A stretch of 64,000 nt of DNA from the NCBI RefSeq assembly GCF_017894385.1, contig NZ_CP059560.1:1-64000 (forward strand), given 5' to 3'. The DNA is from Aromatoleum petrolei (GTDB lineage Bacteria > Pseudomonadota > Gammaproteobacteria > Burkholderiales > Rhodocyclaceae). The position numbers were made by a program, and so were the translations under genes. Positions 5,420-53,559 of this stretch are shown here, piece after piece. Position 1 is the stretch's first letter, and each line of letters starts with the position of its first letter. The notes under the pieces are model-generated. The model searched no databases, was not told the DNA's origin, and saw only the letters and a program-made list of their open reading frames with translations.

Positions 5420-5454
5420 AACACCACAGACGAGAAAACTCGCAGGAGGAGACG

Positions 5455-14581: not shown

Positions 14582-15781
14582 ATGACCGCGACCGCGTCCC
14601 GCGTGTTTCCCGGAGCGCTATGGGTGAGCGCGTTCCGCCCCTTCTTCCTGCTCGGCACGCTGTACGCCCCCCTGCTGATGGGCGCCTGGCTCGGCGCCTG
14701 GTCCGGCTGGTGGAGCGGACCGGTCGGCGACATGCCGGCGGCGTTGTGGCACGGTCACGAGATGGTCTTCGGCTTCTCGACCGCGATCATCCTCGGCATC
14801 GTGCTCACCGCGCTGCCCAGCTGGGCCGGCACCGACGAGATCCACGGCCCCCGCCTCGCCCTCATCGTCGCCGCATGGCTCACAGGCCGCCTCGCCTTCT
14901 GGGCCCTGCCACTGCTACCCGCCGGCATCGCAGCGGTGGCCGATTGCCTGCTGTTTCCGCTGGTGTTCGCGACCGTCGCACCGCAACTGCTGCGCGCGGC
15001 GAACCGCCTGTACCTCTTGCTGCTCCCGGTTCTCGCGGCCTTCTTCACCGCGAACCTCGCCTTTCATCTCAGCATCAGCGCTGGCAATCCGGCCTTGGCC
15101 ACGCTCGCCCTGCACGGCGGCGTCTATACGATTCTCACGCTCTACGTGCTCAAGGGCGGCGTGCTCACGCCGATCTTCACCGGCAACGCGCTGCGCGAAA
15201 AAGGGCGCGGGGAACAGGCGCCGTTCCGGATGTGGCTCGATGTCACCGCCGTCGGCCTCGTCGTCGCGCTCGCCGCGCTCGACCTCGCCGGTGCGCCGGC
15301 CCGATGGATCGGCCTCGCCGCCCTCGCCTGCACCCTCGTCCATGCCTGGCGCGTCGGCCGCTGGCAAGGCTGGCGCGTGGCCGACGTCCCCCTCCTCCTC
15401 GTCATGCACCTCGGCTTCGCCTGGCTGATCCTCGCCTTCGCCCTCAAGGCACTCGCGGCGCTCACCGGCCTCGTTTCCGACACCGCATGGCTACACGCCT
15501 TCACGGTCGGCAGCCTCGGCATGATGATGCTCGGCCTGATGACCCGCGTAAGCCTCCGCCACACCGGCCGCCCGCTCAAGCTGCCGACGGCCATGCGGGT
15601 CGCCTGCGCGCTCGTGTTCGCCGCAGCGATCGCGCGGCTCACGCTGTCGATGCCCCAAGTCCGCTCCTTGGCGATCGCGGCGGCCGCGCTGCTGTGGGCG
15701 GCGGCGTTCGCGACCTACTTGTCCAGGTTCGGAGCGCTGCTGGCGAGGCCCAGCCTCCCGCGCAAGACCGGCACGCCCTAG
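14582..15781 (+). CDS. nnrS: NnrS family haem-copper membrane protein
   Basis: 399 residues, very hydrophobic with about 12 membrane segments. The N terminus has the family hallmarks FRPFFLLG, WHGHEMVFGF and LTALPSW. NnrS proteins occur in denitrifiers and relieve nitric-oxide stress, which fits an organism oxidising aromatics with nitrate. It stands alone, convergent with the asparaginase gene (36 bp between the stops). No clear FNR or Dnr box was recognised in the 177 bp between the hairpin and the ATG. Confidence 0.85.
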   Translation: MTATASRVFPGALWVSAFRPFFLLGTLYAPLLMGAWLGAWSGWWSGPVGDMPAALWHGHEMVFGFSTAIILGIVLTALPSWAGTDEIHGPRLALIVAAWLTGRLAFWALPLLPAGIAAVADCLLFPLVFATVAPQLLRAANRLYLLLLPVLAAFFTANLAFHLSISAGNPALATLALHGGVYTILTLYVLKGGVLTPIFTGNALREKGRGEQAPFRMWLDVTAVGLVVALAALDLAGAPARWIGLAALACTLVHAWRVGRWQGWRVADVPLLLVMHLGFAWLILAFALKALAALTGLVSDTAWLHAFTVGSLGMMMLGLMTRVSLRHTGRPLKLPTAMRVACALVFAAAIARLTLSMPQVRSLAIAAAALLWAAAFATYLSRFGALLARPSLPRKTGTP

Positions 15782-21890: not shown

Positions 21891-22313
21891 TCAGCCCGCA
21901 GCGAGGGCGATCGTCAGGGCTTCGAAGGCGATCATCACGCAGCCGTGGCGGCTGCGGTAGCCCTGCACCGGCGCGAACAGCGCGATCTCGTCGGCGCCCT
22001 CGGGCATTCCGGACACCTCGCCCGCGGTGAGCATCGCCGCCATGCGCGCGCGCAGCCGTTCGACCTCGGCCGGCGTGCTGCCGACCGCATGCAGGCCGAT
22101 CAGCGATGCCGACGCGCGGCACAGCAGGCATCCCTTGACCTCGTGCGCGAGCGCCGTGATGCGGCCGTCGACGAGTTCGACGTCCATCCGCACGCGGTCG
22201 CCGCACATCGGGCTGTCGCGCAGCGCCGAGCCCGTCGGTGCAGCGAGCCGGCCGGCGCCGTGGGCGGCGTCGGCGAGCTCGCGGATGCCTTTGTTGTAGA
22301 GGGCTTCGATCAT
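21891..22313 (-). CDS. NifU/SufU-like iron-sulfur scaffold protein
   Basis: 140 residues. The three scaffold cysteines of the IscU/SufU fold are in their usual settings: SPMCGDR near 36, GCLLCRASASL near 61, and HGCVMIAFEAL near the C terminus. Last gene of the minus-strand operon; ATGA overlap with the molybdopterin-binding gene. It could act as a sulfur or Fe-S carrier working with a SufS desulfurase; the nearest one is at 54066, under a matching promoter. Confidence 0.75.
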   Translation of the reverse strand: MIEALYNKGIRELADAAHGAGRLAAPTGSALRDSPMCGDRVRMDVELVDGRITALAHEVKGCLLCRASASLIGLHAVGSTPAEVERLRARMAAMLTAGEVSGMPEGADEIALFAPVQGYRSRHGCVMIAFEALTIALAAG

Positions 22314-23386
22314 CGGACTGTAGACGTCCCGCTTCGGTTCACGACGTGGGCGGCAGCTCGTGCGGGGCCGCGGGCCCCGTCATCGTCGGGCTTCGCGTCG
22401 TCGCCCTCCTCGGGCGCGCTGCGGATCAGGCCGCCGACGCCCATGCGCATGATGTCTTCGCGTGTCGGGGGGATGCCCGCCATCAGCCGAGGCAGGACGA
22501 GGTCGAGGCCGTTGCTCTTTCGCGAGCGGCCGCAGCCGGGGAGGATCACGACGGGCACGGCGCCGATGCGACCGAGCACGAGCATGTTGCCGGGCTCGAC
22601 GGGCATGCCGAAATGCTCGATCGTGCCACCCACCGCCGTGACCGCGGCGGGGGCGATGTCGTTGCGGTCCTTGGCGACGGTGGCGCCGCACACCATCACG
22701 AGCTCGCAGCCGGCCGCCAGCGCCTGGTGCAGCATGGAGTCGAGGGCGTCGCGTCGATGGGGACCGCGCAGCGCGAGCGTGAGCCGGCCGCCGAGCGCCT
22801 CGACCCGGTCGCGCGTGACCTTCGCCGTGGCCGCGAAGATCGAGTCCTTCATGCCCGGCAGTTCGGTCTGGATCAGCGCGGCGCGGCAGGGCTTGAGTTC
22901 GGCCACGGCGATCGGCGGCGTACCGCCAGCGATTTCGCGGCAGGCATCGAGCAGGCGGCGCGGCACGGCGAAGGGGATGATCTTCATGGTGGCGACGACC
23001 TGACCGGGACGCACGACGGCATGGCGGGGCAGCGTTCCGATCGCGATGGCCTCGTCGAGCAGGTTCATGCGGTCGATGCGTTCGGCGTCGATGCGCAGCA
23101 CGCCGGATGCCGACGCGTGCAGGTTGCAGCGGCCGGCGCGCGGCGGGCGTGTCTCCGTGTTGGGGCCGACGAGCAGGGCGGCGAGTTCCTCGGCTGCGGC
23201 GTCCTCGGCGACGTCGTCCGGATCGAGCCGCGCGCCGGTGACGGTCGAGAAACCCTCGTCGTCGAGCAGATCGAGATCGAGCGCGGACAGCACGCGGCCC
23301 TTCTTCAGCGTGCGCCCGCCGAGCTTCAGCGTGTGGGCGAGCATCACGCCTTGCGCGGCGGCGAGGGGAAATTCGTCGAAGATCAT
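22310..23386 (-). CDS. molybdopterin-binding protein (MoeA/MogA-like)
   Basis: 358 residues. The N-terminal part (FPLAAAQGVMLAHTLKLGGRTLKKGRVL) resembles the MoeA substrate-entry region. The C-terminal half is a MoCF-type domain (VMVCGATVAKDRNDIAPAAV...GMPVEPGNMLVLG...VVILPGCGRS). Such proteins accompany xanthine-dehydrogenase-family enzymes and bind or activate the cofactor. It overlaps the XdhC fusion gene by 4 bp and the NifU-like gene by 4 bp. Confidence 0.75.
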   Translation of the reverse strand: MIFDEFPLAAAQGVMLAHTLKLGGRTLKKGRVLSALDLDLLDDEGFSTVTGARLDPDDVAEDAAAEELAALLVGPNTETRPPRAGRCNLHASASGVLRIDAERIDRMNLLDEAIAIGTLPRHAVVRPGQVVATMKIIPFAVPRRLLDACREIAGGTPPIAVAELKPCRAALIQTELPGMKDSIFAATAKVTRDRVEALGGRLTLALRGPHRRDALDSMLHQALAAGCELVMVCGATVAKDRNDIAPAAVTAVGGTIEHFGMPVEPGNMLVLGRIGAVPVVILPGCGRSRKSNGLDLVLPRLMAGIPPTREDIMRMGVGGLIRSAPEEGDDAKPDDDGARGPARAAAHVVNRSGTSTVR

Positions 23387-25197
23387 TGCTGGTGCCTCGT
23401 CTGGATGACCTCGGCGAGGATCGCGACCGCGATCTCGGCCGGAGCGCGGCCGCCGAGGTCGAGGCCGACCGGCGCGCGGATGCGCGGAATCGCCTCGCCA
23501 AGTCCCGCCTCGGTGAGCCGCGCGACGCGCTTCGCGTGCGTGCGCGTGCTGCCGAGCGAGCCGATGTAGAAAGCGGGGCTCGCGAGCGCGATGGTCAGCG
23601 CGGGATCGTCGAGCTTGGGGTCGTGCGTCAGCGTGATGACGGCGGTCTGGGCATCGGGCTGCAGGCGTTCGAGCGCCTCGTCGGGCCATTCGGTCGACAC
23701 CTCGACATTCGGCAGCCGTTCGGGCGTGGCGAATGCGCGGCGCGGGTCGACGACCACGACGTCGAAGCCAGCGATCGCGGCCATCGGCGCGAGCGCCTGG
23801 GTGATGTGCACCGCACCGACGATGATCATGCGCGGGGCGCCGACGTGGCAGCGCACGAAGAGCGCCCCCTCGTTCGCGCCCTTATTCGCGTCCCCCGCGG
23901 CGAGCGCACCGCTGCGATTGGCCGCGAGGCGGGCGCGCGTCTCGGCAAGTTGGACGTCATCGAGCGAGAGCTCGCCCGCGACCGCGTCGTCGAAAACCAG
24001 CGCGTGTGCGCCGTCGGCGAGCCGGGTGACGAGCGCGACCGGCCGCTTCGCGCGCCGTGTCGCCAGCAGCGGGCCGAACAGCTCGTCATCGACGCGCTCG
24101 ACGAGCACCTGCACGCGCCCGCCGCACGCCAGCCCCACTTCCCACGCCTGCTCGTCGCTGACACCGAATTCCAGCAACCGGGCCTTGCCGTCGGCGATCG
24201 AATCCTGTGCCTCGCCGATGACCGCGCCCTCGATGCAGCCGCCGGAGACCGAGCCGACGAAGGAGCCGCCCTGCTCCACCGCCAGGTGGCTGCCCTCGGG
24301 GCGCGGCGACGAACCCCAGGTTCGCACGACCGTCGCGAGCGCGACGCCGCGGCCGTCCGCCCGCCAGCGCTCAACCTGGGCGAAGAGCTGGTCGTCCGTT
24401 GCCGGCGCCGACGGCGCTGCAACCGCGGCCGCGTTCCGCCGTCGACCGACGCCCGCGACCCGCGCGTGTTCGTCGATGCGATCGGCCAGCGCGGCCACGC
24501 CGTCGCCGCTCGTCGCCACCGTCGTCAGCACGGGCACCTCCCAGCCCGGACCGTGTGCCCCGCCGCGTGCTTCAAGGTCGCGCACCGTGGCCGCGGCGAC
24601 AGGCGAATCGGCCTTGTTGACGACGAGGATGTCCGCGATCTCCAGCACGCCGGCCTTGATCGCCTGCACCTCGTCTCCGAGCCCGGGCGCGCACACGACG
24701 ACGCGCGTGTCGGCGAGCTGGGCGATCTCGACTTCGGACTGGCCGACACCGACGGTCTCGACGACGACGACGTCGAAGCCGGCCGCGTCGAAGAGGTCCA
24801 CCGCGTGCGCCGTCTTCCGGGACAGACCGCCGAGCTGGCCACGCGAGGACAGCGAGCGGATGAAGACGCGCTCGTCGCTGCCGTGAGCGCCCATGCGCAC
24901 GCGGTCACCGAGCAGCGCGCCGCCGCTGACCGGGCTGGAGGGGTCGACGGCGACGACCGCGACGCGCCTGTCCCGCGCGAGCAACTCGCCGAGCAAGGCA
25001 TTGATCAGGGTTGACTTGCCGGCGCCGGGCGCCCCGGTGATGCCGATGACGTGCGCGCGCCCGACCCGGCCGGCGAGCGACGCGAGCAAGGCGTCGGCAC
25101 CGGGGAGATCGTTCTCGATCGCGGTCAATGCGCGTGCGAGCGCCGGGCGGGAGCCGGCGTCAATCGCATCGAAGTCCGGGCTGGGCGGCGGGGGCAT
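23383..25197 (-). CDS. MeaB/ArgK-type GTPase fused to XdhC
   Basis: 604 residues in one frame. Residues 1 to about 265 are a MeaB/ArgK P-loop GTPase: Walker A GAPGAGKST at 55-63, VETVGVGQSEVE, and NKAD near 200. After an Ala-rich linker, residues about 280-335 match the XdhC/CoxI N-terminal domain (VVRTWGSSPRPEGSHLAV; SVSGGCIEGAVIGEA), and 425-600 the XdhC Rossmann domain (VVVVDPRRAFATPERLPN; APVGLDLGGRAPAEIAVAILAEV). XdhC binds and protects sulfurated molybdenum cofactor before insertion. A GTPase chaperone in the same chain suggests nucleotide-gated delivery. I know of no characterised protein with this architecture. Confidence 0.85.
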   Translation of the reverse strand: MPPPPSPDFDAIDAGSRPALARALTAIENDLPGADALLASLAGRVGRAHVIGITGAPGAGKSTLINALLGELLARDRRVAVVAVDPSSPVSGGALLGDRVRMGAHGSDERVFIRSLSSRGQLGGLSRKTAHAVDLFDAAGFDVVVVETVGVGQSEVEIAQLADTRVVVCAPGLGDEVQAIKAGVLEIADILVVNKADSPVAAATVRDLEARGGAHGPGWEVPVLTTVATSGDGVAALADRIDEHARVAGVGRRRNAAAVAAPSAPATDDQLFAQVERWRADGRGVALATVVRTWGSSPRPEGSHLAVEQGGSFVGSVSGGCIEGAVIGEAQDSIADGKARLLEFGVSDEQAWEVGLACGGRVQVLVERVDDELFGPLLATRRAKRPVALVTRLADGAHALVFDDAVAGELSLDDVQLAETRARLAANRSGALAAGDANKGANEGALFVRCHVGAPRMIIVGAVHITQALAPMAAIAGFDVVVVDPRRAFATPERLPNVEVSTEWPDEALERLQPDAQTAVITLTHDPKLDDPALTIALASPAFYIGSLGSTRTHAKRVARLTEAGLGEAIPRIRAPVGLDLGGRAPAEIAVAILAEVIQTRHQQ

Positions 25198-25308: not shown

Positions 25309-25701
25309 TCAATGGCGTGGAAAGACCAGACCGAAGTCCTCGACGAAGTCCGCGAGGCCGGCGGCCTCCAGCCCGTCGAGGGACCTCAGCATGTAGGGAT
25401 GGAGCCGGCCGCGACGCACGAGCTGGGGCACCTCCGCGAGGCCCTGCTCCAGCACCGCGGCGAGCGCATCGCCATCGGCGACGAGCAGCATCGCGACGTC
25501 GGCATCGAAGTCTCCGCGGAAGTCGCGCAGCGCGACGCTGGCGCCGGACGCGGTGCCCCGCCAGACGAGGACCCGGCCGCTGCGCGCGGAGAAATCGTCC
25601 TTCGTCAGCACGCCGACGGACGCGTCGGCCGCCGCGAGCCCCTCGCGATCCAGCATCGCCTTCCACGCCGTGCAGTCGAGCACCTCAACGGCCGTTTCCA
25701 T
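25309..25701 (-). CDS. hypothetical protein in the XdhC-fusion operon
   Basis: 130 residues; no family recognised. It looks like a compact alpha/beta protein without signal peptide, membrane helices or cysteine motif (one Cys at residue 10). It starts 9 bp after the RidA-like stop and ends 111 bp before the MeaB-XdhC gene; that 111-bp gap shows nothing recognisable. Co-transcription suggests a role with the molybdenum maturation genes. Confidence 0.65.
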   Translation of the reverse strand: METAVEVLDCTAWKAMLDREGLAAADASVGVLTKDDFSARSGRVLVWRGTASGASVALRDFRGDFDADVAMLLVADGDALAAVLEQGLAEVPQLVRRGRLHPYMLRSLDGLEAAGLADFVEDFGLVFPRH

Positions 25702-25710
25702 CGCGTGCTC

Positions 25711-26103
25711 CTAGGCCGGCAACATCGCCGTCACTTCGATCTCGATCTTCGCGCCGTGCTCGACGAAGCCGGCGACCTGCAGGGCCGTCATCGCCGGGAA
25801 GTGCTTGCCGATCAGCTCGCGGTAGACCGCGCCGATCTCGGCGAGGCGCGCGTTGTACTCGGCCGCATCGCCGAGATACCAGTTCATGCGCACGATGTTC
25901 GACGGCTGCGCGTCGGCCTGCGCGAGGATCGCGACGATGTTGGTCAGCGCCTGGCGGGCCTGGCCGACGAGGTCGTCGGTCTGGAACTTCTCGTTCTCGT
26001 CCCAGCCGACCTGGCCGGCGACGAATACCATGCGGCCGCTCGTGACGACGCCGTTCGAATAGCCTTTCGGGCGAACCCAGCCGGGCGGTTGCAGGAATTG
26101 CAT
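25711..26103 (-). CDS. RidA/YjgF family protein
   Basis: 130 residues, the usual RidA length. Family features include FVAGQVGWD, TNIVAILAQADA and the C-terminal IEIEVTAML. RidA proteins hydrolyse reactive enamines/imines; others act as amidohydrolases in catabolic operons. The expected substrate-binding Arg of archetypal RidA in the last third is not obvious, so a pathway-specific amidohydrolase or isomerase role is possible. Confidence 0.8.
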   Translation of the reverse strand: MQFLQPPGWVRPKGYSNGVVTSGRMVFVAGQVGWDENEKFQTDDLVGQARQALTNIVAILAQADAQPSNIVRMNWYLGDAAEYNARLAEIGAVYRELIGKHFPAMTALQVAGFVEHGAKIEIEVTAMLPA

Positions 26104-26169: not shown

Positions 26170-28140
26170 TCAGATCCGCACGCCGAGCCGATACCCCTCG
26201 TGGATCGATGCGTCGAGTCCGCGCGGTATAACCGCGTCGCCGGCGCCGTGCAGCTCGTCCACCATCCACTGGAACTCGTGGAAGAGGTCGTGGTTCGCCT
26301 TGCGGGGCCCGGATACGAGCACCGTGTCGGCCTCGACGAAAGTCTCCTCGCCCTTCGCGTTGCGGATCATCGCGCCCTCGCCCGTGACGCCGACGAGCAT
26401 CGACGACGTCAGCGTGCGGATCTCGAGCTCCTCGATCCACGCGGAGTGGCGCCACTTGAAGGACGGCATGACGTCGCCGGCGATGCGCTTGTCCTCCTCG
26501 ACGATGACCACCTCGTGGCCCTGCTTGCACAGCGACTCGGCGAGCGTGAGCCCGATCTTGCCCGCGCCGACCATGACGATGCGCTTGCCCGGCTTCGCCT
26601 TGCCGGTCGCGACGTCGAGGGCGTCGACCAGCTTGTCGTGGCCCGGGATATGGCGGTAGGCGTTCATGTCGGTGCGCGAGCCGGCGGCGACGATGCACAC
26701 GTCGAACTGGTGCAGGATGCTGCGCATGAACTTGGCGTTGGCCTCGGTGTTGAAGCGCACGTCGATCTCCATCTTGCGCGCCATCGTCTCGTAGTACTTG
26801 ATCACCGAGATCAGGTCGTCGGGCCGCGCGAGGTCGTTCGACGCGTAGCCGACGAGGCTGCCGCCGATGCGGTCGCCCTTCTCGAACACGGTGACGTCAT
26901 GGCCGCGACGCTTCGCAGTGATCGCGGCCTCCATCCCGGCTGGGCCGGCGCCGATGATCATGATCTTCTTCTTCACCGCCGCGGGCGTGACGTGGTATTC
27001 CGGCTCGACCTCGTGGCCCAGCGTGGGGTTCATCGCGCAGGTGTAGGGCAGATCGCGGAAGAGCCGCGACAGGCAGTTCAGCGAGCCGATGCAGCGGCGC
27101 ACCTCGTCGAGCCGGTCCTCGGCCGCCTTGTGCAGCAGCTCGGGGTCGGCGAGCATCGGGCGGCACACTTCCCAGTAGTCGAAGACGCCGTCGGCGATGC
27201 ACTGGTTCGCCATGACCGGGTCGGGCAGGCGGTTGCCGAAGGTGATCAGCGTGTTCGGGAAGAGCTTCTTCGCCTTCGCCGAGAGGTAGTTCCAGTGGCC
27301 AGGCGCGACGTCGCGGCCGATCGACGATTCGGGCGCCTCCTGCCAGCCGACCGTCACCGAGATCATGTCGACGCCGCAGTCGACCGCCTGCTGCATCAGC
27401 TCGAAGCACTCGTCCTCGCTGTTGCCGCCCCAGCGGTCCATCAGCTCGGCACCGTTCAGGCGCACGACGAGCGGATGCTCGGGGGTGGCCTGCTTGATCG
27501 AGTCGATCAGCTCGCGCATGAAGCGGCCGCGGTTCTCGATCGAGCCGCCGTATTCGTCGGTGCGCTGGTTGGTGAAGCGCGAGTTGAAGTTCGCGAGCAG
27601 GTAGCCCATGAAGCTCGTGACTTCGGTGCCGTCGAAGCCGGCGCGGATCGCGCGTTTGGCGGCATCGGCGTGCTGCATGACGATGGCGCGGATCTGCTCC
27701 TTGGTCAGCTCGCGCGGCGGACGGAAGTGCGGCAGCGTCTGCGGCACGACGGACGGCTGAATGCAGTAGCCGAGGTCGATGCCGCCGTAGCGGCCGGCGT
27801 GCAGGATCTGCTGGATTGCGACGGCGCCGTTGTCGTGGATGTACTGCGCGATGGTCTCGAACTGCGGCAGGAACTTGTCGTCGAAGATCGCGACCTGGCG
27901 GAAGTAGGCCTTGCCCTCGCCGAGCGGATCGGGATACGCACCCTGGTTGGTGATGATGCCGGCGCCGGTGCCGGCGATGACGCGCGTCCGGGCGAGCTCG
28001 CGCGGGGTGATGTAGCCGTCGCGCGTGTTGTAGTTCGATACGCAGCAGGCGCCGTACTTGACCATGTTCTTGGTCTCGTACTTGCCGATCTTGCCGGGCT
28101 TGAACAGGTGGGGGAGCTTGAGCTCGCCGGGTCGCTTCAT
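26170..28140 (-). CDS. FMN/FAD iron-sulfur oxidoreductase (2,4-dienoyl-CoA reductase/TMADH family)
   Basis: 656 residues. An N-terminal old-yellow-enzyme barrel (QILHAGRYGG; TNQRTDEYGGSIENR) is followed near residue 350 by a cysteine-rich linker, then a FAD/NAD disulfide-reductase-like half (IMIIGAGPAGMEAAI near 392; VMVGAGKIGLTLAE). The linker reads CIGSLNC...C, where relatives have C-x2-C-x2(3)-C...C, so one 4Fe-4S ligand is Ser. Probably reduces or oxidises an enoyl/dienoyl intermediate using NADH. It sits between the small-protein gene and ridA in one operon. Confidence 0.8.
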   Translation of the reverse strand: MKRPGELKLPHLFKPGKIGKYETKNMVKYGACCVSNYNTRDGYITPRELARTRVIAGTGAGIITNQGAYPDPLGEGKAYFRQVAIFDDKFLPQFETIAQYIHDNGAVAIQQILHAGRYGGIDLGYCIQPSVVPQTLPHFRPPRELTKEQIRAIVMQHADAAKRAIRAGFDGTEVTSFMGYLLANFNSRFTNQRTDEYGGSIENRGRFMRELIDSIKQATPEHPLVVRLNGAELMDRWGGNSEDECFELMQQAVDCGVDMISVTVGWQEAPESSIGRDVAPGHWNYLSAKAKKLFPNTLITFGNRLPDPVMANQCIADGVFDYWEVCRPMLADPELLHKAAEDRLDEVRRCIGSLNCLSRLFRDLPYTCAMNPTLGHEVEPEYHVTPAAVKKKIMIIGAGPAGMEAAITAKRRGHDVTVFEKGDRIGGSLVGYASNDLARPDDLISVIKYYETMARKMEIDVRFNTEANAKFMRSILHQFDVCIVAAGSRTDMNAYRHIPGHDKLVDALDVATGKAKPGKRIVMVGAGKIGLTLAESLCKQGHEVVIVEEDKRIAGDVMPSFKWRHSAWIEELEIRTLTSSMLVGVTGEGAMIRNAKGEETFVEADTVLVSGPRKANHDLFHEFQWMVDELHGAGDAVIPRGLDASIHEGYRLGVRI

Positions 28141-29910: not shown

Positions 29911-31293
29911 TTACTGATCCAGGTCAACTGCCATCGAATCGGATGGATGACAAACTATCCGCTTCCCCTCACGCGATCGCATCCCGGCGAGTTCGCGCAG
30001 CACCTGCGCCTGCTCCGCGACGTGCTGCTCGATGTGCGCGATCTGCGCGGGGTCGAGGTGGCGGAACTTGCCGAGCAGCTTCAGGTAATCCGTGACCGGC
30101 AGCGGATCGTCGATGTCGCGCGAGAGCGTCAGCCCCTGCTCGCGGCGGTACTCCCACAGCACGGCGAAGTTCGTCTCGACTGCCGTGCGCGCGACCTCGA
30201 TGTTGCTCGCCGACGGGAAGCGCCAGCCGGACGTGCAGGGCGAATACAGGTGCAGGTAGGCGAAGCCGCGTTCGGAGGCGTCGAGAGCCGCCTCCAGCTT
30301 CGCGTAGAAGTCTTCCATGAACGCGGTCGAGGCCGTCGCGACGTATTCGCAGCCATGCCACATCATCAGCAGCGGCAGGTTCTTGGCGTCCTGCGCCTTG
30401 CCGCGGGCGCTGTCGCCGATGGGCGTCGTCGCCGTCCACGCGCCGTAGGTGGTGCTGCCCGAGCGCTGCGCGCCGGTGTTCATGTAGCCCTCGTTGTCGA
30501 CGCAGACGAAAAGGATCTGCTCGCCGCGCTCCGCCGCGCCCGACAGGGACTGGAATCCGACGTCGCCCGCGCCGCCGTCGCCGGCGAGCGCGAGCGCGGT
30601 CACGTTGCGACCCTTGCGCTTGTGCTGGCGACGGATGCCGGTGAGCATCGACGCGGTGTTCGTGAGCAGCGGATGGAAGACCGGCACCTTGCAGCCGAGC
30701 ATGCCGTTGTAGCCGACCGAGCCCATGCCCGGGATGCAGCCGGGCGGCGTCGCGAGCACGGTGTTCGGGCCGACGCGCCGCAGCGTGTGGCGCATGATGA
30801 GTTCGGTGTTGCAGCCCTGGCAGCCGCCCAGGCCCGGCACGAACAGGTCTTCGAGCTCGCCCCAGCGGTTGTAGAGCTTCGCCGCCGTGACGTAGCGCAA
30901 CGCGCCGCGCGTGCAGGCGGCGACGCATTGCGGAGCGCCCGCGCATTGGTCGCATTTGACGACGTGGCCTTCGTCGGCACTAAATGCGATGCCGCCGAAG
31001 GTGCAGCCGGCGGTGCAGATCAGGCAGTTCACGCAGCGTCCGGCGTCCCACGCGACGACGCCGTCGTCGCCCTTCGCCAGCGCGGCGGCCGGGCATACGG
31101 ACGCGCAGCGCGGGTCGCCGCACTGGCGGCACTGCGCGACGCCCCAGTGACCGGCCTCGTCATCGTGCACGATGCGGATGCGGGACTGAGCCGTGTTTCC
31201 GTGGGTCGATTTCGCGCTCGCGCAGGCGCGCATGCAGTCGCCGCAGCCGTCGCAGCGCGCGGGGTCGAAGGCGATGGTCGGGGTGGCGCTCAT
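29911..31293 (-). CDS. padI: phenylglyoxylate dehydrogenase, beta subunit (TPP and Fe-S)
   Basis: 460 residues. The N-terminal ~135 residues are ferredoxin-like with several 4Fe-4S cysteine sets (CDGCGDCMRAC; CRQCGDPRCASVC; CVNCLICTAGC; CDQC...C). The rest is the TPP-binding catalytic half (GLGGCQGCNTEL; LAGDGGAGDVGFQSL; VDNEGYMNTG). With PadE, F, G and H it converts phenylglyoxylate, CoA and NAD+ to benzoyl-CoA, CO2 and NADH. Last pad gene, 4 bp after padH. Size matches the ~48 kDa subunit described in Azoarcus evansii. Confidence 0.9.
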   Translation of the reverse strand: MSATPTIAFDPARCDGCGDCMRACASAKSTHGNTAQSRIRIVHDDEAGHWGVAQCRQCGDPRCASVCPAAALAKGDDGVVAWDAGRCVNCLICTAGCTFGGIAFSADEGHVVKCDQCAGAPQCVAACTRGALRYVTAAKLYNRWGELEDLFVPGLGGCQGCNTELIMRHTLRRVGPNTVLATPPGCIPGMGSVGYNGMLGCKVPVFHPLLTNTASMLTGIRRQHKRKGRNVTALALAGDGGAGDVGFQSLSGAAERGEQILFVCVDNEGYMNTGAQRSGSTTYGAWTATTPIGDSARGKAQDAKNLPLLMMWHGCEYVATASTAFMEDFYAKLEAALDASERGFAYLHLYSPCTSGWRFPSASNIEVARTAVETNFAVLWEYRREQGLTLSRDIDDPLPVTDYLKLLGKFRHLDPAQIAHIEQHVAEQAQVLRELAGMRSREGKRIVCHPSDSMAVDLDQ

Positions 31294-31297
31294 CGAT

Positions 31298-32584
31298 TCA
31301 TCTCCACAGTCCGGACATCAACGCCCGCGCGGTGTCTTGCGGGTTTTCGAGCAGTGCACCGCGCCGCGCGCCGATCTCGACGCGGCGCAGGATCAGCTCC
31401 CACATGATCCCCGGATCGAACAGCACGTCGACGCCGAAGATGCCTTGCAGACGGCCATCGCGCAGCACGAGCTTGAGGTAGGCGTCGCCCCCCTCCCCGC
31501 CGCGCACGAGCACGTCCCACTCCGATCCGGCCCCCTCGGGGGCGTCGCGCCCCACGGAAAGGGCACGGTGACCGAAGAAGCCGTAGGTGTTCAGCGGCAC
31601 GCCCCCGGGATAGGGGCGCAGGGCGGGATCGCCCGCCATGCTCATGCCGGCGGTGCGGCCCTGTTCGACGGCGTCGGGCAGGATGCCTCCCGCGGGCGTG
31701 CCGTCGCCGAAGAAGCTCGGCGTCTGCACGACGTCGCCGGCCGCCCAGACGTTTGCCGCGGCGGTGCGCATGAACTCGTCGACGACGACGCCGCGCTCGA
31801 CCGCGACGCCCGAACCGGCGAGATACGACACCTCCGGCCGCACCCCCGCGGCGACGAGCAGCAGGTCGGCGTCGCGCGCCTCGCCGCCGTCGAGCAGCAC
31901 CGCGCAGCCTTCGCCGCGCCGCGCGAGCTGTTCGACACGCCGGCCGGTCAGCACCTCGACGCCCTTGTCGCGGAACACCGCTTCGATGCAGGCGGCGGCC
32001 GCGGCGTCGAAGTAGCCGGGCAGCACCTGGCCGCGCATCTCGACGACCGTCACGCGGGCCCCTGCACGCACGAGGTTCTCGGCGGCATGCATGCCGACGA
32101 GTCCCGCGCCGAGAACGACCGCCCTGCCCGCGGAACGGCCGGCCTCACTTGCGACCTCACTTGCAACATCTCGCAGCGCGAGCGCGTCGTCGAGCGTGCG
32201 CAGCACGTGGAAGCTCACGTCCGACAAACCCTCGATCGGCGGGAGCGCCGGGGCGGCCCCCGTTGCGAGCAGCAGCTTGCCGTAACCGATCTCGCGGCCG
32301 TCGGCGAGGCGCAGCCGGCCCTGGGCGGTGTCGAGCGCGGCGGCGGCCGCCTGCTGCCGGTAGTCGACGCGCTGAGCGTCGAACCAACGCCGCTCACGCA
32401 GCGCGATGCGATCCTCGGCGCACTTGCCGGACACCACGTAGGGCAGCACCGTCGGCGACACCGGCAGCCGCGCCTCGCGGTCGAGCACGGCGATGCTGCC
32501 GTCCGCATCGTGCGCGCGGATCGCCCGCAGCGCTTCGAGACCAGCGTGGCTCGCGCCGAGCACGACGTAGTCGAACTGTTCCAT
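31298..32584 (-). CDS. padH: phenylglyoxylate dehydrogenase, epsilon subunit (FAD NADH oxidoreductase)
   Basis: 428 residues of pyridine-nucleotide-disulfide oxidoreductase type. FAD-binding start (YVVLGASHAGLEALRAI), NAD-binding motif VVLGAGLVGMHAAE near 150, and C-terminal FAD motif (VWAAGDVV near 275). It passes electrons from the 2-oxoacid oxidoreductase core to NAD+, which makes PadEFGHI NAD-dependent. Start codon immediately follows the padG stop (TGAATG). Confidence 0.9.
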   Translation of the reverse strand: MEQFDYVVLGASHAGLEALRAIRAHDADGSIAVLDREARLPVSPTVLPYVVSGKCAEDRIALRERRWFDAQRVDYRQQAAAAALDTAQGRLRLADGREIGYGKLLLATGAAPALPPIEGLSDVSFHVLRTLDDALALRDVASEVASEAGRSAGRAVVLGAGLVGMHAAENLVRAGARVTVVEMRGQVLPGYFDAAAAACIEAVFRDKGVEVLTGRRVEQLARRGEGCAVLLDGGEARDADLLLVAAGVRPEVSYLAGSGVAVERGVVVDEFMRTAAANVWAAGDVVQTPSFFGDGTPAGGILPDAVEQGRTAGMSMAGDPALRPYPGGVPLNTYGFFGHRALSVGRDAPEGAGSEWDVLVRGGEGGDAYLKLVLRDGRLQGIFGVDVLFDPGIMWELILRRVEIGARRGALLENPQDTARALMSGLWR

Positions 32585-33880
32585 TCATCGATCCTCGGCG
32601 TTGAGCCACACGGGCTCGCGCGGACAGGGGGCATCCAGGAGCTTCGCGGTTTCGGCAATCGCGCGCTCGAAATGCGTTTGGGTCAGATCGGCGCCGGCGA
32701 GGCCGCCGATCAGCGACAGGCAGGGAATGCGGTGGCGGCAGTGCTGCAGCGCCGCCAGCGTCTCCTGATGCACGGGGCCGCTGTTCCAGCCGTAGGACAC
32801 TGCGCGATCCACGACGCCGACCGCGCGCACCTTGTCGAGCGCCGCGACCATCGCGTCGAGCGGGAACGGCCGCAGCGTCTTGATGCGGATGAGGCCGACG
32901 CGCTCGCCGCGGTCGCGCGCGGCATCGACCGCATCCTTCGCGGCGCCCGCCATGCTGCCGATCGTCACGAGCGCGTGATCGGCCTCGTCCAGCCGGTATT
33001 CCTCGACCAGCGGCGCGTAGCGGCGGCCGAAGCGGCGCGCCCATTCCTCGTGCACCTCGACGATCACGCGCAGCGCGTTCTGCATGCCTTCGCAGTGCCC
33101 GCGCCGGTAGCCGACGAAGAGCGCCGGCCCCGGTCCCGTCGCGCCGCCGGTCAGCGGATCGACGCCCATCGGCCGGTCGGGGTCGAGCGCCGCGTGCCAA
33201 TTCACGTCCGGCGTGCCGAGGAAGTCGTTGACCTCGGCCTGGTCGGGCAGCTCGATGCGGACGATGCCGTTCGACAGGTAGTTGCCGTCGTGATTGACGT
33301 TGACCGGCAGCATCACCGAGCGGTCCTCGGCGATGCGGTAGGCCATGACGATGGTGTCGAGCACCTCCTGCACCGTCTCGCAGAAGAGCTGCACCCAGCC
33401 GACCTCGCGCACCGTCATCGCGTCCTGCTGGCCGCCCCACACGCACTGCGGCGTGATGCCGTCGCGGTTCACGATGGACATGACGATCGGCAGGCGCAGG
33501 TTGGGCGTGCGGAAATAGGGCTCGAACATGAAGGCGAGACCCTGGCCGCAGCTCGCGGTGTAAGTGCGCGCCCCCGCCAGCGCCGCGCCATGCAGCACCG
33601 ACAGCACGCTGTGCTCGCCCTCCGCCTCGACGAGCTCGGCATCGAGCACGCCGTCGGCGACGAACTGCGCGACGTACTCGGCGAGCGAGGACTGCGGCGT
33701 GATCGGATACACCGCGACCATGTCCGGCCGCGACAGCACGACGCCCCACGCCGCCGCCTCGTTGCCGTCGCAGACGAGGATCCTGGGTTCCTTTTTCGCG
33801 GTCACGGCGTCGGTGCGCGGCACCACTCCTTTGCCCGCCGGTTCGGCAAGCAGCCCGGTCTTCTCGACGACCTCGTTCAT
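32585..33880 (-). CDS. padG: phenylglyoxylate dehydrogenase, alpha subunit
   Basis: 431 residues from the ATG with GAGGA 5 nt upstream; an earlier in-frame start at 33916 lies inside padF. Pyruvate:ferredoxin oxidoreductase alpha fold: VYPITPQSSLAEYVA near 60, EAEGEHSVLSVLHGAALAGARTYTASCGQGLA, and a C-terminal transketolase-like domain (VGLIRIKTLRPFP). One base separates it from the padF stop. Confidence 0.9.
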   Translation of the reverse strand: MNEVVEKTGLLAEPAGKGVVPRTDAVTAKKEPRILVCDGNEAAAWGVVLSRPDMVAVYPITPQSSLAEYVAQFVADGVLDAELVEAEGEHSVLSVLHGAALAGARTYTASCGQGLAFMFEPYFRTPNLRLPIVMSIVNRDGITPQCVWGGQQDAMTVREVGWVQLFCETVQEVLDTIVMAYRIAEDRSVMLPVNVNHDGNYLSNGIVRIELPDQAEVNDFLGTPDVNWHAALDPDRPMGVDPLTGGATGPGPALFVGYRRGHCEGMQNALRVIVEVHEEWARRFGRRYAPLVEEYRLDEADHALVTIGSMAGAAKDAVDAARDRGERVGLIRIKTLRPFPLDAMVAALDKVRAVGVVDRAVSYGWNSGPVHQETLAALQHCRHRIPCLSLIGGLAGADLTQTHFERAIAETAKLLDAPCPREPVWLNAEDR

Positions 33881-33881
33881 C

Positions 33882-34172
33882 TCATTCCTCTTCGGCCACC
33901 ATCGAAATCGCCCCATGCGGGCATTCGCGCGCGCAGATGCCGCAGCCCTTGCAGGTGGCGAGGTTCATGTCGAACCAGCCGGCGCGCTCGACGACGCACT
34001 GCACGGGGCAGTACAGCCAGCACACCGCGCATTTCACGCACTTGCGGCGGTCCACAACCGGGCGCAGCGAACGCCAGTCGCCCGGCAGCATGCGGCTGTA
34101 CTCGGTCGCGATCGGGCACAGGGTTTTCGGGATCGCGCCCGCATCGAAAAGCGGCACCGCCTGCTTCTTCAT
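33882..34172 (-). CDS. padF: phenylglyoxylate dehydrogenase, delta subunit (8Fe ferredoxin)
   Basis: 96 residues with two 4Fe-4S motifs (CVKCAVCWLYCPVQC; CKGCGICARECPHG), as in delta subunits of 2-oxoacid:ferredoxin oxidoreductases. Overlaps padE by 4 bp (ATGA). The frame is open upstream, but that part is the shadow of padE. Confidence 0.9.
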   Translation of the reverse strand: MKKQAVPLFDAGAIPKTLCPIATEYSRMLPGDWRSLRPVVDRRKCVKCAVCWLYCPVQCVVERAGWFDMNLATCKGCGICARECPHGAISMVAEEE

Positions 34173-34741: not shown

Positions 34742-34751
34742 GCGGCCTCCG

Positions 34752-35540: not shown

Positions 35541-35550
35541 GCTTCTCTCC

Positions 35551-36501: not shown

Positions 36502-36523
36502 CGGCCGTCTCCGTTGCCGCGGC

Positions 36524-37423: not shown

Positions 37424-37434
37424 GTGCATCCCCT

Positions 37435-40664: not shown

Positions 40665-40705
40665 TACCGCTCCTCGGTGGAATTGCGCGCCTGCTTCGAG
40701 CATTG

Positions 40706-49755: not shown

Positions 49756-52137
49756 TCAGCGACTACCTCTTATGCTTGCGTAATCCCGCACGCCCTTCTC
49801 CATGATGCCCTTCAACACCTTCTCCGGCGTGATCGGCGCCTCGATGAACTGGATCCCGATGGCGTGGAAGATCGCGTTGGCCACCGCCCCCACCGGGCTC
49901 ACCAGCCCCGACTCGCCGACGCTCTTCGCCCCGAAGGGGCCGACCGGATCGGCGTCCTCGACGAGGATCGTCGTGATCTTCGGCATGTCCTCGGGGCCGA
50001 ACATCTTGTAGTCGGTGAAGCTGTTGTTCTGCACCCGTCCCTTGGCGTCGTAGTCTGTCTCCTCGCTCAGCACGAAACCGAGGCCCTGCTGGATGCCGCC
50101 TTCGAGCTGACCTTCGACCGCGGCCGGGTTGATCGCGCGCCCGATGTCGTGCGCATTGACGAGCTCGGTCACCCTCACCTCGCCGGTCTCGGTATCGACC
50201 TCGACCTCGGCGAAGGACGCCCCGAAGGGTGGCGAGTTGTGCGGGGCGAAGAAGCTCACGTAGCCCTGGATCTGCCCCGGCACCCCGCCCGGTTCGCCGG
50301 TCATGGGGTCGACGAAGTGATACACGCCGGCGCGCGTGATCGCCTCCGCCTCGATGCCGCGCGAAGGGTCCGCCTTGACGAAGATCCGTTTGTTGCGAAT
50401 GTCGAGCTCGTCGGCGGGAACGCCGAGCTGCAGCGACGCGCGCTCGAAGAGTTGGCGCTTCGCCTCCTCGCAGGCCTTCTTCACCGCAGCGCCGCCCACG
50501 TAGATCGTGCGGCTCGCATGCGCGCCGATGTCGAAGCCGGCGACGTCCGAGGTGCCGCCCGACAACTGCACATGCTCGAAGGGGAAGCCCAGCGTCTCCG
50601 CGGCGATCTGCTTCAGCGCCGTGTGCGAGCCCTGCCCCATGTCCGAGCAGGCGAACAGGACCTCGGCGGTCGCGTCCTCGTTGAGCTTCACGGTACAGGC
50701 GGTGTGCTCCAGCAGCATCGGCATCGCCCCGCTGGTGTGATTCATCACCGCGACACCGACGCCGCGCCGGATCGTCCCCTCCTGCTTCGCGTACTTGCGC
50801 CGCTTCTCGGTCCAGCCGATCGCCGCCGCACCGCGGTCGAGGCACTCGTCCAGCGCGCACGACGGATAGGTCACGCCCGGGCACCAGCCGTCGTCGCCGA
50901 CGCCCTTGTGCCATTTCTTGCGCCATTCGACCGGATCGGCGCCGATCTCGGCGCATCCGCGGTCGATGAGCTGTTCGAGCACGAAGTTCGTCTGCGGGTT
51001 GCCGTAGCCGCGATACGCGCCGGTCAGGCCCTGGTTCGTGAAGTAGGACTCGCCGCGGTAACGCAGCGCCGGGAAGCGGTACATGCCGCCGAGCCAGGCG
51101 CCGGCCGTGAAGGCGGTGCCGGAGGCGTCGAGGTAGTAGGCCCCCTTGTAATTCTCGAAGCGCGCGTCACATGCGAGCGGCGTACCGTCACGCTTGAAGC
51201 CTATCCTCATCCAGTACTTTCCCGGGTGGCGGCTCGGCGAGATCACCCAGTCCTCCTCGCGCAGCGTCTGCAGCTTCACCGGATGACCGGGCACCGCCAG
51301 CGCCATCGCGCAGACCTGCGGTTCCGAGATCATGCCGAGGCGCGTGCCGAAGCCGCCGCCGATCACGGTCGGAACGATCTTCATGAGATTCATCGGCAGG
51401 TCGAAGAGCTTCGCGAGCTTGCGCTGCACGAGCTTGGGCATCTGCGACGAGGTCCAGCACGTGAGCCGCCCGCCGCTGTCGACCTTCGCGACGTACGCGT
51501 GCGGCTCCATCTGGCATTGCTTCTGTTTCGGGACGTAGAACGCGTCCTCGACCACGATGTCCGCCTCCCGCATCGCGCCGTCGACATCGCCGCCGCCGAG
51601 CGCGTGGTTTGGGAACATCGCCTCGGGCAGCTGGAACGCCAGGTTGCCGGGTTTCTCCGGCGTAAACTGCACCGCCCCGGGCGCCCTCGACGCTTCCGCG
51701 GTCAGGTACACCGGCAACGGCTCGTACTCCACGATCACCTTCGCCGCGGCGCGCTCGGCCGCCTCTTCGGAACGCGCGATGATTCCGCAGATGGCATCGC
51801 CCTGAAATTTCACGTGCTCGGTGAAGATGGGCTGGTCGTCGATGTCGCCGAGCATGTCGTGCATCGACTCGGACACCATCAGGTCGAGCACCGACGAGTT
51901 GTAGCGCTTCGCCGTGACGTCCTTCGGACCGATCACGCGCACGACGCCCGGCGACGCCGCCGCCGCCGAGAGATCCAGCCGCTTCACGCGTGCGTGGGCA
52001 TGTTCCCAGCAGCGCACCACCTTGCCGTACAGCATGCCCGGCAGCTGGATGTCCGCCGCGTACTGCGCCTGCCCGGTCGCCTTGTCGCGCACGTCCACGC
52101 GCGGCGCGTTGGTGCCGACGATCGCTTGCTCGCTCAT
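49756..52137 (-). CDS. xanthine dehydrogenase-family molybdenum hydroxylase, large subunit
   Basis: 793 residues. N-terminal a/b hammerhead (GTNAPRVDVRDKATGQAQYAADI), then the cofactor-binding domain: GGGFGTRLG near 270, AYRGYGNPQ near 375, GQGSHTALKQIAAE and the catalytic glutamate motif VGESGL near 745. It belongs to the branch with 4-hydroxybenzoyl-CoA reductase and carbon monoxide/aldehyde dehydrogenases. Substrate not recognisable; co-regulation with the pad operon suggests an aromatic or CoA-bound aromatic compound. ATGA overlap with the 2Fe-2S subunit gene. Confidence 0.85.
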   Translation of the reverse strand: MSEQAIVGTNAPRVDVRDKATGQAQYAADIQLPGMLYGKVVRCWEHAHARVKRLDLSAAAASPGVVRVIGPKDVTAKRYNSSVLDLMVSESMHDMLGDIDDQPIFTEHVKFQGDAICGIIARSEEAAERAAAKVIVEYEPLPVYLTAEASRAPGAVQFTPEKPGNLAFQLPEAMFPNHALGGGDVDGAMREADIVVEDAFYVPKQKQCQMEPHAYVAKVDSGGRLTCWTSSQMPKLVQRKLAKLFDLPMNLMKIVPTVIGGGFGTRLGMISEPQVCAMALAVPGHPVKLQTLREEDWVISPSRHPGKYWMRIGFKRDGTPLACDARFENYKGAYYLDASGTAFTAGAWLGGMYRFPALRYRGESYFTNQGLTGAYRGYGNPQTNFVLEQLIDRGCAEIGADPVEWRKKWHKGVGDDGWCPGVTYPSCALDECLDRGAAAIGWTEKRRKYAKQEGTIRRGVGVAVMNHTSGAMPMLLEHTACTVKLNEDATAEVLFACSDMGQGSHTALKQIAAETLGFPFEHVQLSGGTSDVAGFDIGAHASRTIYVGGAAVKKACEEAKRQLFERASLQLGVPADELDIRNKRIFVKADPSRGIEAEAITRAGVYHFVDPMTGEPGGVPGQIQGYVSFFAPHNSPPFGASFAEVEVDTETGEVRVTELVNAHDIGRAINPAAVEGQLEGGIQQGLGFVLSEETDYDAKGRVQNNSFTDYKMFGPEDMPKITTILVEDADPVGPFGAKSVGESGLVSPVGAVANAIFHAIGIQFIEAPITPEKVLKGIMEKGVRDYASIRGSR

Positions 52138-52646
52138 TGCACGACCTCCTTGCAGGGCTCGACCGCCGCGACACGGCCCGGCATCGTCTGCGCCGCCTTT
52201 TTCACCGCCTTGACGATTTTCTCGTAACCGGTGCAGCGGCAGATGTTGCCCTCCAGCGCATGACGGATCTCGGCCTCGCTTGGGTCGGGGTTCGTCGCGA
52301 GCAGGCTCGCCGTCTTCATGACCATGCCCGGCGTGCAGTAGCCGCACTGGATCGCAGCCTCGTCGACGAAGGCCTGCTGGATGTGGTCGAGCCGGCCGAA
52401 GTCCGCCCGCCCCGCGACCGTCGCGATGCGCTTGCCGTCCATCGTCGCGGCGAGCGTCAGGCAGGAATTGATCGCCTTGCCCTCGACGACCACCGTGCAG
52501 GCGCCGCATTCGCCGGTGCCGCAGCCGTATTTCGTCTCCGTCATGCCGAGTTCGTCGCGCAGCACGTCGAGCAACGTGCGATTCACGGCGACGTTCAGCC
52601 TGTACTCCTCACCATTGATATGGAGCGTGATGTCCCGGTTCTTCAT
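52134..52646 (-). CDS. molybdenum hydroxylase, 2Fe-2S subunit
   Basis: 170 residues with both family clusters: plant-type CGTGECGACTV...C near 42-61 and the all-helical CGYC...CRC type near 100-138 (IQCGYCTPGM; GNICRCTGYE). Small subunit of the three-subunit hydroxylase, carrying electrons from molybdenum to FAD. Located between large and FAD subunit genes. Confidence 0.9.
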   Translation of the reverse strand: MKNRDITLHINGEEYRLNVAVNRTLLDVLRDELGMTETKYGCGTGECGACTVVVEGKAINSCLTLAATMDGKRIATVAGRADFGRLDHIQQAFVDEAAIQCGYCTPGMVMKTASLLATNPDPSEAEIRHALEGNICRCTGYEKIVKAVKKAAQTMPGRVAAVEPCKEVVQ

Positions 52647-52677
52647 TCTGGTCTCCTCGTCTTCTTCGGCCGCGGGC

Positions 52678-53559
52678 TCAGGCGGCGCCGCAGGCTTCCT
52701 GGATCGCCCGCTTGAGCAGCACGCCCGACACCTGCTTGCGGTATTCGGCGGTGGAGCGCTTGTCGTCGATCGGGCTGATCTCCCAGGGCACCGACGCGGC
52801 GACGCGTTGCAGCACCTCCGGCGTGAGTTCGTGGCCCTTGAGCAGCGTCTCGGTTTTCGTCAGCCGCAGCGGCGTGGGCGCGACGCAGCCCATCGCGAGG
52901 CGGGCGTCGACACAGGTGTTGCCCTCCATCTCGAGCCGCACCGCGACGTTGAGCTTCGCCAGATCCTCGCTCGTGCGGGTCATGCGCTTGAAGGCGGAGC
53001 GGGAACCGGCCGCGGGCGGCGGCAGGATCAGTTCGACGGCGAGCTCGTCCGGCAGCCGCGCGGTGACGCCGTACGACAGCCAGAAGTCATCGATGTCGAC
53101 CTCGCGGCGGCCGGATGCCCCGTGCAGCACGACGACGCCGCCGATCGCGTAGATCGCGCAACTGCAGTCGCCGGCGGGCGACGCGCGCAGCAGGTTGCCG
53201 AGCACCGTGGCGGTGTTGCGCACCTGGCCGGTCGCGAAGGTCTGCGCGGCATGCCACAGGGCACGGTAATGCCGTTTCACGTCCGGCTGCGCGAGCAACT
53301 CGGCGACGGTCGCCTTGGCGCCGATGCGCAGGCCCTTTTCGGGGTCGAACAGCACGTAGCCGAGACCCGGAACGTTATCCAGGCTCATCACGAATTCGGG
53401 CACCTTGGCGGGCGATTGCGCGAACTTCATCGCAACCATGACGTCGGTGCCCCCGGCCATCACGGTGATCCGCTCACGGTGCGTCGACAGCAGCTCGACC
53501 GCCTCGGGGATGCTCTGAGGAAGCAACAGGTCAAAATCCGGCAATATTCGACTGCTCAT
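52678..53559 (-). CDS. molybdenum hydroxylase, FAD subunit
   Basis: 293 residues of the CO-dehydrogenase flavoprotein type (FDLLLPQSIPEAVELLS; VMAGGTDVMVAMKF for FAD; TVLGNLLRASPAGD). I see no CxxC cluster insertion of the kind found in 4-hydroxybenzoyl-CoA reductase beta subunits, which argues against a reductive enzyme. First gene of the operon, behind an XylS-like promoter. Confidence 0.85.
   Translation of the reverse strand: MSSRILPDFDLLLPQSIPEAVELLSTHRERITVMAGGTDVMVAMKFAQSPAKVPEFVMSLDNVPGLGYVLFDPEKGLRIGAKATVAELLAQPDVKRHYRALWHAAQTFATGQVRNTATVLGNLLRASPAGDCSCAIYAIGGVVVLHGASGRREVDIDDFWLSYGVTARLPDELAVELILPPPAAGSRSAFKRMTRTSEDLAKLNVAVRLEMEGNTCVDARLAMGCVAPTPLRLTKTETLLKGHELTPEVLQRVAASVPWEISPIDDKRSTAEYRKQVSGVLLKRAIQEACGAA

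Follow-up and report, generated by a model that had tools for sequence, protein, structure and literature searches.

The chaperones XdhC, CoxF, CoxI and PaoD serve enzymes of the xanthine oxidase family (PDB 2we7, 3on5), and the G-protein chaperones MeaB and MMAA serve B12 (cobalamin)-dependent mutases (2qm7, 8dpb, 2www). In the window analysed here, a stretch of 64,000 nucleotides from contig NZ_CP059560.1 of Aromatoleum petrolei, the two are joined in a single gene, and its product, P0001, on balance probably serves the maturation of molybdenum hydroxylases, as an XdhC chaperone whose captured, N-terminal MeaB-type G protein clocks cofactor transfer. A MeaB-type G domain is likewise fused within a cofactor-loading system in IcmF, but IcmF fuses the G domain to its client, isobutyryl-CoA mutase, whereas P0001 fuses it to the chaperone of another cofactor. 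Maturation of Cox-type CO dehydrogenase involves CoxD (an AAA+ ATPase), CoxE (VWA) and CoxF (XdhC); MoxR, VWA and XdhC genes likewise surround the split gene in two of the loci described below (L014 and L017), and the MeaB-XdhC form differs by the GTPase added to XdhC. MobB is a GTP-binding protein of molybdopterin guanine dinucleotide synthesis, and a literature search for MobB returned nothing.

According to passages of PMC2997495, XdhC is a dimer that binds molybdenum-molybdopterin (Mo-MPT), allows its sulfuration by NifS4 and inserts the cofactor into apo-xanthine dehydrogenase (apo-XDH), an enzyme proposed to stay open until insertion and to be closed afterwards; the control of insertion is not identified in those passages. 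For MeaB, passages of PMC9974510 propose that the GTP-bound protein keeps the mutase open and that hydrolysis, signalled by switch III, permits closure, and report that exchanges of D182, Q185 and K188 uncouple GTP hydrolysis from cofactor transfer.

The fusion gene and its domains

The gene and the domains of its product are as follows:

23383..25197, minus strand: MeaB-XdhC fusion gene (protein P0001), supported by its open frame, Pfam, NCBIfam and fusions in 7 of 17 genus genomes
24448..25140, minus strand: MeaB G domain, residues 20-250 (Pfam PF03308, 287 bits; PDB MeaB matches; P-loop, switches I-III and NKxD)
24163..24366, minus strand: XdhC_CoxI domain, residues 278-345 (Pfam PF02625, 85.5 bits; position repeated in the genome XdhC_CoxI search)
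23407..23829, minus strand: XdhC_C Rossmann domain, residues 457-597 (Pfam PF13478, 133.5 bits; best PDB match 2we7/2we8)

A preliminary description of this DNA had reported a single 604-residue frame joining a MeaB-type G protein to a complete XdhC, without giving a strand, and the frame proved to be an intact minus-strand gene, running from an ATG at 25197 to a TGA at 23385-23383 with no internal stops. MeaB, XdhC_CoxI and XdhC_C all lie in one chain and score above their Pfam cut-offs (23.1, 24.3 and 29.7 bits, respectively); the MeaB domain is followed by a short linker and then by a complete XdhC spanning residues 278-602. The NCBIfam MeaB model TIGR00750 matches P0001 at 296 bits (cut-off 240.75), and the NCBIfam XdhC models and the MeaB model PRK09435 match below their cut-offs, which for XdhC are equivalog cut-offs. 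The Walker A motif (GAPGAGKST) and NKxD motif (NKAD) are intact, as had been proposed, and with ETVGVGQS they belong to a full set of G3E GTPase features, comprising the P-loop, switch I Asp, switch II Glu, switch III D/Q/K and NKxD. In the XdhC half, the conserved cysteines C321 and C358 are invariant across a 35-row alignment, and either may be the counterpart of Cys82 of R. capsulatus XdhC. A Pfam scan of P0001 gave no match to the MM_CoA_mutase domain.

The nearest solved structures are the Mycobacterium smegmatis XdhC homologue 2we7, over residues 278-601, and MeaB-type proteins, over residues ~11-261. A model of P0001 predicted from the 35-row alignment has a mean predicted local distance difference test score (pLDDT) of 77 and a predicted template modelling score (pTM) of 0.48, with top Foldseek matches to 2we8 and 2we7 and a match to MeaB 4jyb. 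Both halves of the protein look intact at the sequence level. The C-terminal extension of MeaB is absent, since the profile match stops at 240/273 (Pfam) and 240/300 (TIGR00750) and XdhC comes next; passages of PMC9974510 assign this extension to dimerisation.

P0001 shares with the described XdhC-type chaperones both of their domains and the two cysteines, and several of its relatives likewise lie near hydroxylase, MoxR, VWA, MocA and SufS genes, but it adds an N-terminal GTPase, of which none is described for XdhC in passages of PMC2997495, PMC10609526 and PMC4240915. With MeaB and MMAA it has in common the P-loop, switches I-III, NKxD and the N-terminal region, and it differs from them in the missing dimerisation extension, in the attached XdhC and in having no mutase in the flanks of the 15 MeaB-XdhC loci considered below. 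No paper in the literature searched, whose coverage leaves out most subscription journals, treats MeaB and XdhC together, in keeping with the preliminary remark that the activity is not known to have been described. Judged by titles and the beginnings of abstracts, none joins MeaB with the molybdenum cofactor, and the GTPase passage found in a paper on XdhC concerns TorD. The sequences themselves are already on record, since databases carry some of these proteins as MeaB or as xanthine dehydrogenase accessory factor; what is new is how two known parts are combined.

Conservation of the fusion and its occurrence elsewhere

Across 17 Aromatoleum genomes, that of A. petrolei included, the full fusion is present in seven (eight genes, two of them in G006), a split form in five and neither form in five. 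In the five split genomes, the MeaB-XdhC_CoxI gene stops in an ATGA at which a separate XdhC_C gene begins. A wider protein set was assembled from the query and the best 120 of 7837 matches and sorted by length; of these 121 proteins, 52 are fused and 64 are split, carrying MeaB-XdhC_CoxI without XdhC_C. The preliminary description had held that a missed stop, frameshift or assembly error, or a finding that all homologues are separate genes, would undo the fusion. The former is ruled out by the identical open frame in the seven genus genomes and in many other sequences and the latter by the 52 fused proteins, and a chance frame is ruled out by the domain scores and by the ratios of nonsynonymous to synonymous substitution (dN/dS). 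Long plus-strand frames overlie the locus, and a codon-position gene caller kept the minus frame in their place. The MeaB-XdhC fusion is confirmed as a genuine single gene.

Both domains are under purifying selection within the genus: comparison of the window gene with four relatives in the genus gave dN/dS values of 0.075-0.125 for the MeaB part and 0.083-0.152 for the XdhC part. Among the 116 fused or split proteins of the best-matching set, the Walker A and switch III motifs are present in all 116 and NKxD in 106. The switch residues D85, E147, D175, Q178 and K181 do not vary among those fused or split rows that have a letter at these positions (118-119 rows). The switch III residues D175, Q178 and K181, which align with D182, Q185 and K188 of MeaB, are invariant in 119/119, and the N of NKxD, retained in P0001, is replaced by S in 13 of the 119.

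Among 300 sampled genomes of the order, with four candidates scored per genome, the full fusion was found only in A. petrolei itself, and the fusion is therefore rare outside the genus; record titles show the combination retained in several lineages of betaproteobacteria. What recurs is a unit in which MeaB and the small XdhC_CoxI domain share a chain, with the Rossmann domain often encoded by a gene of its own. This unit had been missed in the preliminary description.

Loci elsewhere (ARRANGEMENTS) were represented by 80 named loci retained of 580 confirmed, with flanks of up to 10 kb that are shorter at contig ends. A MeaB domain is present in 15 of the 80, fused in six (L007-L012), split in five with an ATGA or GTGA overlap (L015, L016, L019, L020 and L022), and set apart from the XdhC_C gene in four (L013, L014, L017 and L018). 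L014 and L017 share the order MeaB-XdhC_CoxI, CoxL-like, CoxM-like, MoxR, VWA CoxE, XdhC_C, MoeA-MocA and SufS, the beginning of which is also seen in L018 before its contig ends. XdhC is followed by MoeA-MocA, SufS and NifU in L010 and L013, and L011 has MoeA-MocA and NifU. Overall, MoeA, SufS, NifU or hydroxylase genes occur in the examined flanks of 9/15 MeaB-XdhC loci. As to a possible genetic link with a xanthine-oxidase-family enzyme, the genes adjoin in L014, L017 and L018, and in the window the hydroxylase lies 24 kb away but co-occurs with MeaB-XdhC. In Azospirillum B510, a form without MeaB comprises hydroxylase genes, MoxR, VWA, a separate gene for a 109-residue XdhC_CoxI, XdhC_C and a MoeA-MocA-like gene. 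The split form of L015 adjoins an NnrS gene (5275-6687 of that locus); the window also has one, at 14582-15781, ~7.6 kb from the fusion, and members of the NnrS protein cluster are present in five other loci.

It is highly improbable that the two halves are unconnected, sharing a chain for co-expression only, with a GTPase that has nothing to do with the molybdenum cofactor. Such a reading would suit the 65/80 loci whose examined DNA contains XdhC but no MeaB (one of them, L021, begins within its gene at a contig end), but MeaB is joined to XdhC_CoxI in all 15 loci that have it, and selection has been maintained on both domains in the genus.

The G domain, B12 mutases and a proposed mechanism

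When matches were restricted to proteins of at most 358 residues, the G domain had its nearest relatives outside the XdhC-joined forms among stand-alone MeaB-type proteins, mostly of ~317 residues. Four plasmid-borne relatives, picked out of 57 records, all lie beside cobalamin-dependent mutase genes. The order sample yielded 11 MeaB-only matches, with a mutase within ~3.5 kb of nine and none seen in the examined stretch around the other two. A B12 mutase therefore lies within 4 kb of 13/15 checked stand-alone relatives (four from plasmids and nine from the order sample), whereas searches with IaaG and methylmalonyl-CoA mutase (MCM) as queries found none in the flanks of the 15 MeaB-XdhC loci. 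A Fisher figure of 9e-7 for this difference is a guide only, because flank lengths are unequal between the sets and relatedness is ignored. On the strength of this contrast, a molybdenum-cofactor chaperone appears to have captured a G-protein chaperone of the mutase type. A G-domain tree built from a sample of 91 rows mixes fused with split rows and places 35 of 40 stand-alone rows in one clade (support 83/89). A single origin of the fused and split G domains is not claimed from the tree, because many of its forks are unresolved and the branches leading to canonical MeaB and IcmF are very long.

A mechanism in which the G domain clocks transfer from XdhC to the hydroxylase is proposed from the switch III and open-closed model of MeaB, from the passages on insertion by XdhC and from D175, Q178 and K181 of P0001. 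The XdhC part would bind Mo-MPT or the molybdopterin cytosine dinucleotide (MCD) cofactor arriving from MoeA (and MocA), keep it while a cysteine desulfurase swaps an oxo for a sulfido ligand, and then pass it to the apo-hydroxylase. The G domain would act as the clock of this hand-over. With GTP bound, it would keep the complex of chaperone and client open so that loading can proceed; the GTPase site would be completed when the client binds, and hydrolysis would close and release the complex. Dimerisation may be supplied by XdhC in place of the MeaB C-terminal extension. We infer the binding of the molybdenum cofactor by P0001, its GTP dependence and the order of events. GTP-gated delivery of the cofactor, as put forward in the preliminary description, gains partial support from the cofactor and hydroxylase genes at 9/15 loci and from the invariant switches; the gating itself, by analogy with the action of MeaB on mutases, would be the best reading of the fusion.

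Gene surroundings and candidate clients

The genes that flank the fusion are as follows:

22310..23386, minus strand: MoeA-like molybdopterin-binding gene, 358 residues (partial match to NCBIfam PRK14498, 32 bits; homology to MoeA-MocA fusions over their MoeA part)
21891..22313, minus strand: NifU_N-like gene, 140 residues (Pfam PF01592, 27.2 bits, cut-off 22)
25309..25701, minus strand: 130-residue protein with an SCP2-like predicted fold (model pLDDT 90.6; SCP2-like structure matches; in 10 of 10 further Aromatoleum regions)
25711..26103, minus strand: RidA-family gene (Pfam PF01042; in 10 of 10 further regions)
26170..28140, minus strand: FMN/FAD oxidoreductase of the old-yellow-enzyme (OYE) family (Pfam PF00724 and Pyr_redox_2; in 10 of 10 further regions)

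The MoeA-like gene begins within an ATGA overlap with the fusion gene and is in turn overlapped by the NifU_N-like gene at an ATGA; neither the MoeA-like protein nor the 130-residue protein has a match in the Pfam scan. The same-strand order OYE-family reductase, RidA, 130-residue protein, MeaB-XdhC, MoeA-like and NifU-like is kept in all ten further Aromatoleum regions. In the five split-type regions the MoeA match comes with a MocA match, while the window, L007 and L009 have a MoeA of 358-360 residues that lacks MocA.

These surroundings bear on the suggestion, which we regard as decidedly unlikely, that the GTPase works at an earlier step, driving hand-over from MoeA/MocA to XdhC or sulfuration and not insertion into the enzyme. 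The overlap of the window fusion with the MoeA-like gene, the SufS and NifU genes downstream in several relatives and the attachment, in split forms, of the G domain to the small XdhC_CoxI domain instead of the Rossmann domain would all fit an earlier step. MeaB, however, acts on the client enzyme, according to passages of PMC9974510, and the MeaB-XdhC_CoxI gene adjoins hydroxylase genes in L014, L017 and L018, with the cofactor genes farther off in L014 and L017.

Further along the window, at 29911-40703 on the minus strand, lies an anaerobic phenylacetate (pad) cluster in which the phenylglyoxylate dehydrogenase proteins PadI and PadH score above their NCBIfam cut-offs; it also contains a POR-type subunit, FdhD, an NrfD/DmsC-like protein and a molybdenum oxidoreductase, with a cyclase-family gene inside. 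In L156 (genome G148, contig C26), from another genus, a MeaB-less XdhC with MoeA-MocA and NifU lies divergent to a pad cluster, with an OYE fragment at the edge of the stretch. Because L156 pairs a MeaB-less XdhC with a pad cluster, the link between pad and XdhC may be older than the MeaB fusion in that genus.

The candidate client of the fusion protein is encoded at a greater distance:

49756..52137, minus strand: molybdenum hydroxylase large subunit, 793 residues (NCBIfam XdhA 613 bits, below the cut-off of 780)
52134..52646, minus strand: putative [2Fe-2S] subunit, 170 residues (assignment from visual inspection of the cysteine pattern and from homology in relatives)
52678..53559, minus strand: FAD subunit, 293 residues (NCBIfam XdhB-type 165 bits, below the cut-off of 310)

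The best PDB match of the large subunit is 1rm6, 4-hydroxybenzoyl-CoA reductase. This hydroxylase is present in 10 of the 17 genus genomes, each of which has MeaB-XdhC, and in none of the five that lack it (hypergeometric 0.003, with relatedness ignored), and G006 has two copies of each. In L042, a 66% homologue of the hydroxylase lies 0.4 kb before an XdhC homologue. The A. petrolei genome has three XdhC_CoxI matches and five hydroxylases, of which two adjoin XdhC; the remaining three lie in the window, in a putative iaa operon and at 1.99 Mb. The client is most likely the hydroxylase at 49756-53559, and possibly also that of the putative iaa operon. A SufS-type cysteine desulfurase gene at 54066-55325 on the plus strand is divergent from the window hydroxylase. 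It was dropped as a maturation link because it has 44-49% identity to operon SufS and its best score, below cut-off, is to a model of family 2A encapsulin cargo.

In A. petrolei, a B12 mutase and a molybdenum hydroxylase are encoded in one operon, which from its gene content we take to be an iaa (indoleacetate) operon, with a hydroxylase that presumably belongs to the indoleacetate pathway. Between this hydroxylase and the MeaB-XdhC operon there are 4-9 kb in 4/10 Aromatoleum regions and, if the contig is circular, some 43-47 kb in A. petrolei. The mutase gene is visible in two of these four regions (2/10), in a separate operon 11-13 kb away; the regions end ~10-13 kb downstream of the MeaB-XdhC operon, so larger distances would escape. 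Passages of PMC8360864 give such an operon the mutase IaaGH and the dehydrogenase IaaF and do not mention a molybdenum enzyme.

Owing to this neighbouring operon, P0001 might instead be a dual-cofactor chaperone, the MeaB half serving the B12 acyl-CoA mutase and the XdhC half the molybdenum hydroxylase of the same putative iaa operon, with the fusion tying both supplies together. This appears unlikely, although the combined operon and the proximity of its hydroxylase in the 4/10 regions would suit it. None of the three MeaB matches in the genome adjoins the putative iaa mutase, and the G domain keeps its switches together with R17, R22 and R99, which align with R20, R25 and K106 of MeaB, residues of mutase binding in passages of PMC9974510. 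Against it stand the absence of mutases from the examined flanks of the 15 MeaB-XdhC loci, in contrast to the stand-alone relatives, and the position of MeaB-XdhC, which overlaps the MoeA-like gene and lies outside the mutase operon. Moreover, canonical MeaB could serve the putative iaa mutase: it is present in all 17 genus genomes, adjoining methylmalonyl-CoA mutase in all 11 that were given a locus, and is found next to a mutase among the three A. petrolei matches. The further proposal that one G-protein chaperone, through its GTP cycle, clocks the loading of both putative iaa enzymes, the mutase with B12 and the hydroxylase with molybdenum cofactor, is quite improbable.

Several observations weigh against a captured G protein that clocks molybdenum-cofactor transfer. 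The operon with the B12 mutase lies near MeaB-XdhC in Aromatoleum, and the fused G domain differs little in sequence from its stand-alone relatives: the majority residue differs, at >80% in both groups, at three positions (56, 65 and 117), so that this comparison yields no evidence of residues marking lost mutase binding. The candidate hydroxylase sits 24 kb from MeaB-XdhC in the window and is missing from two of the 12 MeaB-XdhC genomes (G001 and G002, of the split form). Cofactor genes were not found in the examined flanks of 5/15 loci (L015, L016, L019, L020 and L022), and the contig of L012 stops with the MeaB-XdhC gene. In Thiothrix (L025), a very similar operon, with a CoxL 82% identical to that of L014, has XdhC and no MeaB match in its 10 kb flanks, and the G domain therefore seems dispensable for this hydroxylase type in general. 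The domain arrangement in the predicted P0001 model is unreliable, as its pTM indicates.

If a single GTP cycle did serve both cofactors, two metalloenzymes of auxin breakdown would be matured together. For the favoured role in hydroxylase maturation, the natural fusion provides one protein in which nucleotide-controlled molybdenum-cofactor insertion is testable with the point mutants of MeaB and, if that role is true, a cofactor-specific G-protein chaperone would be transferable to an unrelated cofactor.

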